Shown here: positions 33,698 to 36,000 of the stretch, piece by piece | Layout of the letters: every line of letters starts with the position of its first letter | How positions within the stretch are numbered: position 1 is the stretch's first letter | Assembly: GCA_003223295.1 (NCBI GenBank) | Contig: QHYM01000126.1 | Location: 1 to 52,034, forward strand | Direction: 5' to 3' | Origin: Acidobacteriota bacterium | GTDB taxonomy: Bacteria; Acidobacteriota; Terriglobia; Acidiferrales; UBA7541 | DNA: 52,034 nucleotides | Position numbers and translations under genes: made by a program | The notes under the pieces: model-generated | The model's input: the letters and a program-made list of their open reading frames with translations, nothing else | What the model was told of the DNA's origin: nothing | The model's database searches: none

Positions 33698-34639
33698 TCA
33701 CGTGGAAGCATGGCCCGCCAACGGATAGCCACGCTCGCGCCATGCATTCAGGCCGCCTTCCAACGGCCGGATGCGCTTGATTCCATTCTTTCTGAGGAGC
33801 AGCGCCACACGGGCGCTGGTAGCTTCGTTCGGTCAAGTACAGTAAAGAACCACCTCACTATCCCGCGGGAGACGGTTGCTCTTTTCCTCGAGCTCCTTGG
33901 CCTCCATGTGCAGCGCTCCGGGAATGGTCTCCGGCTCAGCTTCGAAATCCATCGAATGGCGCAGATCCACGATCGTGACCGGTTCTCCCGAATCAATTTT
34001 TTTCTTTAATTCATCCACGGTAATCCGCGCGATACGCAATTCCCGGAGGAAGCGCTGGCGGGCGACAAATTTGTAGCCGATATAGGCAGCCAGGGCGCCG
34101 GCCATCAGCACAAGAAGCCAGCCGCCAAGCGAAGCCAGACGCGCCGCAACGCGCTCAATCTCGCCGCTGAAGGCGTACCCTACTCCGAGAAAAGCGCACG
34201 CCCACAGCGCCGAACCTATGGCGTCAAACAACAAAAAGCGCCGGAAGCGCATGCGAAAGACTCCCGCAAGCGGCGGCGTAACCAGCCCAAGACCCGGCAA
34301 AAACTTCGCCAACAAGAGCGATCGCGCTCCCTGCTTGGAGAATATGCCTTCCGTCCGCCGCACGCAGGAATCCGGCTCGAGCGAAATCCGGCAGAGAAGC
34401 TGCAGAATCTTGATGCCTTTGTGGCGTCCCAGCTGAAACCAAACGGAATCCGACGTCAGCGCACCTAACACCGCGAACAAAAGTGAGGCAAAGAAATTAA
34501 GTTGTCCCGCGCCGGCAAGGGCGCCCGCAGCAAGCAGCAAAGGCATTGCGGGAATGGGAACGCCGATCTGTTCCACGAGAACCCACGCAAACAATACCGC
34601 GTGTCCATGGTGGATGAGGAAATCGAAGGCGCGATGCAT
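33698..34639 (-). CDS. DedA-rhodanese fusion, candidate selenoprotein (in-frame UGA as Sec269)
   Basis: 313 residues if the UGA at 33833-33835 is read through, 268 if it stops. Residues 1-200 are a DedA (SNARE-associated) membrane domain with EQIGVPIPAMPLLLAAGALAG and AKFLPGLGLVTPPLAGVF. Residues about 215-313 are a rhodanese domain: VTIVDLRHSMDFEAEPETIPGAL split across the domain start, then EVVLYCT, UGA, PNEATSARVALLLRKNGI, IRPLEGGLNAWRERGYPL. The UGA falls where related fusions are expected to have Cys in a YCxCPNEA loop. Cys267 is intact. The downstream frame is perfectly rhodanese-like. A SECIS-like hairpin follows. The alternatives are a nonsense mutation or a sequence error. It is last in an operon, after the nitroreductase. 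No clear ribosome binding site. Confidence 0.8.
33800..33818 (-). promoter_or_regulatory. Candidate bacterial SECIS element
   Basis: On the minus-strand mRNA, CAGCGCC (33818-33812) and GGCGCUG (33806-33800) form a perfect 7-bp stem closing the loop CGUGU. The loop begins after 21 nt from the UGA. Bacterial SECIS rules ask for an apical loop 16-37 nt after the UGA with a G among its first two bases, and both are met. It lies inside the coding sequence, as bacterial SECIS elements do. Confidence 0.6.
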
Positions 34640-34666: not shown

Positions 34667-35272
34667 TCACTTGGAAGCGAAAGGAGCAGTATGCCCCCAA
34701 CTGCCCGTCATTACGAATTCGCGGATCGGCTTGCGTGTCCTTGGCGCCAATTCTGACTTTCGGAAGTCTTCCGGGAGAGTTTGCGGGTCGCCGGGATATC
34801 CGATGGCGATTGCCGAGACGGGATCCCAGCCCTCGGGAATCCCGAACTCCTTCCGGGCCTTATCATGGTAAAAGCCCGCCATCTGATGAACGAGCAATCC
34901 GCGTGAGGTAGCTTCCGCAGTCAGTTGCGCATTAGCCGCGCCGACGTCATGAACGGCCACGGGGTTCGGCGTACCATTGTGACTGAAGTTCCGGCGCGCC
35001 ACAGAAATCGCCAGCACTGGTGCGTTCTTGGCCCATTTTGCGTTGAACTCCACCAGAACGCTCAACATTTTCCTGCAATTTTCTGCATCATCCTTGGTGG
35101 CGACGAGATACGACCAGGGCTGGTCGTTATAGCTGGATGCCGCCCAGCGCGCCGCCTCGAAAAGGCTGGCGAGGACCGCTGGTTCAACGGTTTTGTCCGA
35201 GAATGCTCGCGGGCTCCAACGATTGCGGATGAGATCGTGTACGGGATAGTCCGTTACTGCTGCTTTCTGCAT
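34667..35272 (-). CDS. Nitroreductase-family flavoprotein
   Basis: 201 residues. NRWSPRAFSDKTVEP and FEAARWAASSYNDQPWSYLVA are the FMN-binding N-terminal signature; a later AHDVGAANAQLTAEATSRGL-like helix (starting VHDVGAANAQLT) and WDPVSAIAIGYPGDP complete the family fold. It reduces nitro compounds, quinones or related acceptors with NAD(P)H; the physiological substrate is unknown. The start ATG has AGAGGG 9 nt upstream. It lies between yceI and the DedA-rhodanese gene (27 bp before it), suggesting a redox-stress operon. Confidence 0.9.
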   Translation of the reverse strand: MQKAAVTDYPVHDLIRNRWSPRAFSDKTVEPAVLASLFEAARWAASSYNDQPWSYLVATKDDAENCRKMLSVLVEFNAKWAKNAPVLAISVARRNFSHNGTPNPVAVHDVGAANAQLTAEATSRGLLVHQMAGFYHDKARKEFGIPEGWDPVSAIAIGYPGDPQTLPEDFRKSELAPRTRKPIREFVMTGSWGHTAPFASK

Positions 35273-35376: not shown

Positions 35377-36000
35377 CTAATCGCCGGACTTCGGCGCAGC
35401 CTTTTGAATCAGCTCCACGTCGAGCGTAATGTTCACGTCATCGCTCACCACCACGCCGCCGTTATCGAGTTTGGCGTTCCACTTCACGCCGAAGTCTTGC
35501 CGGTTGATTTTCGTGGTCGCCGTGGCCGCGACTCGCTGATTTCCCCAGGGATCCTTTACCGGAGCAGTCAGCCCATCCACGTCGAGCACTACCTCTTTGG
35601 TCGTGCCCCTGATGGTGAGGTCGCCGGTCACGCGGAGCTTTCCCGGCGCGATTTGTTCCACCTTTTTCGATTTGAAAGTTATGCTGGGGAAGTGTGCAAC
35701 GTCAAAGAAGCGTTCGCTGCGCAAATCTTTGTCGCGGTCGGGTTCGCGAGTGTCCACGGTATTCACGTCAATGCTTACTTCTATGCTGGATTTCGTAATG
35801 TCTTGATTATCGAGCACCATCGTTCCACTGAGCTTGCTGAAGGCCCCGCGCACTGTGGAAAGGCCCAGGTGACGCACCGCGAACTGCGCTGAGGAGTGCT
35901 GCGGGTCGACCTGCCAGGTGGAGTCGGCGGCCTTGGCAGGTATCAAAAGGCCCATCGCGATGCTTGAGAGTATTGTGATTCGTGAGAAGTATTTGTTCAT
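35377..36000 (-). CDS. YceI-family periplasmic lipocalin-like protein
   Basis: 207 residues. Signal peptide MNKYFSRITILSSIAMGLLI with a cut near PAKA-AD. The mature protein begins STWQVDPQHSSAQFAVRHLG, the classic YceI opening, and continues with DNQDITKSSIEVSIDVNTVDT, FDVAHFPSITFKSKKVE and DDVNITLDVELI. YceI proteins bind polyprenoid or amphiphilic molecules in the periplasm and are often stress-induced. It follows the MarR gene by 56 bp on the same strand. Confidence 0.94.
   Translation of the reverse strand: MNKYFSRITILSSIAMGLLIPAKAADSTWQVDPQHSSAQFAVRHLGLSTVRGAFSKLSGTMVLDNQDITKSSIEVSIDVNTVDTREPDRDKDLRSERFFDVAHFPSITFKSKKVEQIAPGKLRVTGDLTIRGTTKEVVLDVDGLTAPVKDPWGNQRVAATATTKINRQDFGVKWNAKLDNGGVVVSDDVNITLDVELIQKAAPKSGD

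Follow-up and report, generated by a model that had tools for sequence, protein, structure and literature searches.

The DedA-rhodanese gene described here is encoded on the reverse strand of a 52,034-nucleotide acidobacterial contig, analysed whole and referred to below as the window. It carries an in-frame UGA that is followed, within the coding region, by the hairpin CAGCGCC-CGUGU-GGCGCUG. This arrangement raises the question of whether the hairpin is a bacterial SECIS (bSECIS) element through which selenocysteine (Sec) is inserted at the UGA. In bacteria, the loop and upper stem of a SECIS element are the binding site of SelB in complex with Sec-tRNA-Sec, which inserts Sec at the UGA. A sequence-only reading had proposed such an element from the stem, the loop and the spacing of the hairpin. 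The features of the locus are as follows (all on the reverse strand).

33698–34639: predicted selenoprotein gene, 313 aa, Sec at 269, TGA read through
33836–33838: ACU codon preceding the UGA
33835–33833: in-frame UGA, predicted Sec269 codon
33818–33800: candidate bSECIS hairpin, 7 bp with a 5-nt loop
33818–33812: 5' arm of the hairpin
33811–33807: apical loop, CGUGU
33806–33800: 3' arm of the hairpin
33700–33698: true stop codon, TGA

The UGA occupies the catalytic position of a rhodanese domain

The 313-residue protein joins a DedA/VTT membrane domain (aa 29–155; PF09335, E 4.6e-16) to a rhodanese domain (aa 207–302; PF00581, E 3.9e-15), so that PF09335 and then PF00581 occur in one protein, as in a DedA-rhodanese fusion. 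The UGA context is YC-T-U-PNEATSARVALLL, in which Cys267 and Sec269 form a C-x-U motif. The segment U-PNEAT-S gave an ungapped phmmer alignment with C-GGGFR-S of 6mxv, and a similar one with 3iwh. The aligned Cys in these solved rhodaneses is the catalytic Cys, as established for the rhodanese family. As in active rhodaneses, the alignment and a structure model (mean pLDDT 82.8) place the nucleophile at the start of a six-residue active-site loop. In the model, Cys267 and residue 269 lie in a loop between strand 262–266 and helix 273–284. The best fold matches of the model were rhodaneses, and models of the undecaprenyl-phosphate flippase UptA matched the protein below cut-off. Both Cys267 and residue 269 (Sec or Cys) are invariant across 55 homologs. 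Sec is thus predicted to replace the catalytic-position Cys of the rhodanese.

Homologs carry UGA or a Cys codon at the same position

Homologs were collected by a genome scan and by searches of the family and the class, and duplicates were removed. At the position of the UGA, 83 distinct homologs have TGA and 82 have TGC or TGT. The UGA form is present in several families of the acidobacterial class and its members share between 87 and about 36% identity with the window protein; plasmid records contained only relatives of less than 60% identity. One TGA flagged in the genome search (L172) was rejected as a UGA homolog, being a Cys homolog with its TGA at another codon.

All UGA homologs keep 37–65 codons after the UGA. 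Past this point, 31–32 close UGA homologs differ at first, second and third codon positions by 0.227, 0.130 and 0.464, with 75% amino-acid identity, a pattern of purifying selection. The Cys homologs read straight through the position. Thus, the conserved coding sequence past the UGA indicates that it is not a stop.

The hairpin has bSECIS geometry and is unexceptional as a single sequence

We applied the published constraints by hand to the hairpin. The bSECISearch model, as restated in PMC13188914, specifies a loop of 3–9 nt, a stem of 4–16 bp and 16–37 nt from the UGA to the loop, and the loop should carry a G in its first two positions, mostly followed by G or U (PMC13188914). Folding of 71 nt gave CAGCGCC-CGUGU-GGCGCUG as the stable local fold at the site, and both letters and fold agree with the perfect 7-bp stem, the small loop with G as its second base and the strand that had been claimed. 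Fourteen nucleotides, CCGAACGAAGCUAC, separate the UGA from the hairpin, which puts the start of the loop 21 nt after the UGA, in agreement with the earlier estimate and inside the published range. The mean free energy of the 21-nt hairpin region was −12.1 kcal/mol across 45 UGA homologs (threshold, ≤ −7.5 kcal/mol), and the RNAalifold consensus energy was −8.57 kcal/mol. A lower stem reaching toward the UGA was ruled out, as RNAalifold gives only the inner 5 pairs.

We then asked how often such a hairpin is found by chance. Comparable hairpins, defined by a stem of 7 bp or longer without mismatches (G-U allowed), a G at loop position 1 or 2 and 16–37 nt spacing, follow 109 of the 1426 TGA triplets (7.6%) on both strands of the whole window, so the rarity of the hairpin had been overstated. 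The 71-nt fold has a z-score of −0.68, which is unexceptional for one sequence. For this amino-acid sequence, encoded at the codon frequencies of the gene itself, a 7-bp stem that also carries the loop motif is expected with P ~0.014. Additionally, the hairpin was said to be independent of the protein-level evidence, which does not hold because it overlaps the conserved codons for S-A-R-V-A-L; two of its seven pairs come nearly free from two Ala codons, as they do in the Cys homologs. The hairpin alone is therefore weak evidence, given the 7.6% background and the unexceptional folding, and judging the SECIS from the single sequence was dropped. Searched as a genome-wide motif, the hairpin had one exact match, the DedA-rhodanese gene itself; the one single-mismatch match was rejected, being no commoner than in a reversed control. 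Rfam gave no match in the window at the gathering threshold. It is the comparative evidence that lifts the hairpin above chance.

The hairpin is conserved in UGA homologs and not in Cys homologs

To compare the two groups, we counted the pairs formed at the seven stem positions. UGA homologs form a mean of 6.70 pairs and Cys homologs 4.07, while synonymous-codon resampling predicts 4.27 and 3.89, respectively. The conserved core consists of the inner 4–5 bp and, in the loop, a G with G or U after it. The inner 4 bp together with this loop motif are present in all 83 UGA homologs and in only 3 of the 82 Cys homologs, which is the pattern of conservation with Sec but not with Cys expected of a bSECIS. 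Equal conservation of the stem in Cys homologs, which would have spoken against a SECIS, is thus not seen. With the inner 5 bp, the element is found in 80 of 83 UGA homologs (resampled mean 3.0, maximum 8). The loop motif by itself, with its G at position 2 or 1, occurs in 83/83 UGA homologs compared to 10/82 Cys homologs.

Synonymous sites give the same contrast. Among the 31–32 close UGA homologs, third positions differ by 0.058 in the hairpin versus 0.555 upstream and 0.464 downstream. Of 117 seven-codon windows, the one at +5 to +11 shows the largest synonymous excess in UGA homologs (0.79, against a median of 0.10), whereas the excess in Cys homologs peaks at 0.19. The loop itself varies with the amino acid or codon it encodes (CGU, CGG, AGG or GGU) and in the 83 UGA homologs always retains G followed by G or U. 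This loop motif survives Arg-to-Gly and Arg-codon changes in four homologs (L169, L179, L182 and L183). In two of these, L179 and L183, the Arg of the motif is replaced by Gly, with loops GGUCA or GGUCG.

A tree built with the hairpin codons masked yielded ten supported independent Sec/Cys pairs, and the element accompanied Sec in 7.8 of these, with the opposite pattern in 0.0 (median p 0.008); this was a quick tree with several long branches, so the number of switches is approximate. Two Cys homologs, both with TGT, are close to the UGA form: L185 has a fully intact element, and L023 has a 7-bp stem with the loop CACGT, lacking G at position 2. Both look like recent switches to Cys, although the tree is unrooted and this direction is presumed.

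The codon before the UGA, ACU, occurs in 58 of 83 UGA homologs and in 13 of 82 Cys homologs. The U preceding the UGA may reflect a recoding context effect. As a second recoding signal, ACU was rejected: the raw counts are strong, but the association is not significant in phylogenetically independent pairs.

Covariation is confined to the outermost pair

The predicted covariation in UGA homologs was found, at the outermost pair only. Fifty UGA homologs have CG here and 16 have GC; the pair shows 17 both-side changes, a number that 0 of 500 shuffles reached. Cys homologs have no excess covariation. For this outermost pair, the independent pairs within the UGA group all point in the right direction (3.5 to 0.0), but their number is too small to reach significance. 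Variation in two of the adjoining pairs is mostly to G-U or U-G. No UGA homolog shows a change in the inner three pairs or in the bases beside them, and with such an invariant core RNAalifold gives a covariation term of about zero. Synonymous constraint and the Sec/Cys contrast thus carry more of the case for the element than covariation does.

Alternative explanations

Reading the UGA as an ordinary stop, or as a sequencing or assembly error, would leave a gene ending after DedA and a partial rhodanese. That is what a standard gene caller reports, its table-11 ORF ending at the UGA at 33833. We give this almost no credence, since TGA recurs at the same codon in homologs from many separately assembled genomes, selection continues past it, and the Cys homologs lack any stop there. 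The hairpin might instead be a functionless by-product of GC-rich codons for the Ser-Ala-Arg-Val-Ala-Leu motif. The background frequency, the z-score and the two pairs supplied by Ala codons in both groups all fit such an origin. It is nonetheless highly improbable: in Cys homologs whose peptide is identical or similar, about 4 of 7 pairs form, just as resampling predicts, while the UGA homologs far exceed their prediction; synonymous sites are frozen only in UGA homologs; and the divergence of these homologs from the window protein shows that they are not one recent clone.

A constraint acting on the primary sequence instead of on pairing, for instance through a motif contacted by SelB or the ribosome or through pausing, is harder to separate from a SECIS because the inner three pairs never vary and pairing there is indistinguishable from sequence conservation. 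We consider it very unlikely, as the outermost pair swaps CG for GC far beyond the shuffled expectation, two adjoining pairs change mainly to G-U or U-G, and the geometry is that of published bSECIS elements. The hairpin is thus most probably a bacterial SECIS element with Sec inserted at the upstream UGA, to which we assign a probability of about 0.95. Computation establishes that Sec and Cys alternate at one codon, that coding continues after the UGA, that the hairpin is frozen only in UGA genes and that the selenium machinery is complete (below); from these we infer that Sec is actually inserted and that SelB binds, as well as the chemistry and the role in the cell. In the proposed mechanism, the transcribed hairpin, its loop 21 nt downstream of the in-frame UGA, would be bound at its loop and upper stem by SelB carrying Sec-tRNA-Sec, and Sec would be delivered at the UGA in place of termination. 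Sec at the rhodanese nucleophile with a Cys two residues before it suggests sulfur transfer or a selenenyl-sulfide redox cycle. Most likely, the selenol would carry sulfur as a seleno-persulfide or cycle via a selenenyl-sulfide with Cys267, at the membrane surface.

The genome encodes the selenium machinery

The genome containing the window is 95% complete and has selA, selB, selC and selD. The tRNA-Sec has the anticodon UCA and scores 64.9 bits, SelB and SelA score 350 and 571 bits over cut-off, and SelD scores 349 bits with an in-frame TGA of its own. This SelD (L108; C136:8380–9342) reads AAGUAAKL around its TGA, which is followed by a different strong hairpin; it is predicted to be a second selenoprotein of the genome, with another SECIS sequence. 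In this same genome (L001, 1480–1880), two identical-looking tRNA-Sec genes flank a run of N; a true duplication was rejected, as the two copies on either side of the N run are possibly an assembly or scaffolding artefact.

Of 38 Sec genomes outside the family, 35 have SelA, and the three without it are 75–88% complete; among Cys control genomes, SelA was found in 11 of 21. Within the family, the Cys genomes G083 and G084 (94–97% complete) had no SelA and no SelB over cut-off. Since many Cys genomes keep SelA and SelB, the machinery alone does not predict Sec.

Conserved neighbours

Two genes upstream, also on the reverse strand, are conserved:

34667–35272: nitroreductase-family gene, directly upstream (PF00881, 4.4e-20)
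35377–36000: YceI-family gene, next upstream (PF04264, 4.1e-51)

The nitroreductase gene adjoins the DedA-rhodanese gene in 38 further relatives' loci, some of them the same species twice, and the YceI gene is a conserved neighbour in most of these; both are conserved across the genus. Between 34667 and 36518, MarR, YceI and nitroreductase genes share one direction with the DedA-rhodanese gene. YceI-like proteins bind polyprenyl lipids. Hypothetically, YceI, DedA and polyprenyl lipids could be functionally linked. The DedA proteins of COG0586 are putative undecaprenyl-phosphate flippases (PMC10127716).

Implications and comparison with known systems

The hairpin appears to be a bacterial SECIS, and the selenoprotein gene that contains it is distributed across a class of soil Acidobacteria. 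Because the standard code cuts the gene at the UGA, many acidobacterial annotations probably lack its catalytic half. The family also offers a natural experiment on SECIS function, as the same peptide motif occurs in closely related Sec and Cys genes; with ten or more supported independent switches between Sec and Cys, and with elements decaying in Cys genes such as L185 and L023, the minimal element can be read from nature. Tentatively, the class-wide and apparently undescribed selenoprotein could combine a Sec-rhodanese, a DedA lipid-carrier flippase and the conserved YceI and nitroreductase neighbours in a sulfur or redox step at the membrane that depends on selenium and is tied to polyprenyl lipids, a possibility that we regard as somewhat unlikely. 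We found no paper combining selenoprotein, rhodanese and DedA, a weak indication because most subscription journals lay outside the search, and papers with both 'selenoprotein' and 'DedA' looked unrelated, judging from their titles and abstracts.

C-x-U rhodanese selenoproteins are known as form 3, NF041203 rhodanese_LYCAU (PMC13188914). The window protein shares with this model a rhodanese domain with C-x-U, and all 55 aligned homologs match the model (best E 5.9e-29). It differs in scoring 90.3 bits, under the curated cut-off of 115, in reading YCTU rather than YCAU, and in its N-terminal DedA/VTT domain, which has no counterpart in the 126-position model. Since its match is below the cut-off, the window protein is a relative and is not filed as a member. 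DedA-rhodanese fusions are in turn recorded within COG0586 (PMC10127716), with Pseudomonas aeruginosa PA1209 as an example (PMC12893004). Such fusions share the N-terminal DedA/VTT and C-terminal rhodanese arrangement of the window protein; the excerpts consulted on them do not mention Sec, whereas the active-site residue of the window protein is encoded by a UGA with a predicted SECIS. In comparison to the bSECISearch consensus, the hairpin shares loop size, upper stem, loop G followed by G or U, and spacing, with no essential difference; its loop sequence and stem are particular to the DedA-rhodanese gene family. The hairpin is thus of a known kind, and both DedA-rhodanese fusions and rhodanese selenoproteins with C-x-U have been described, each on its own.
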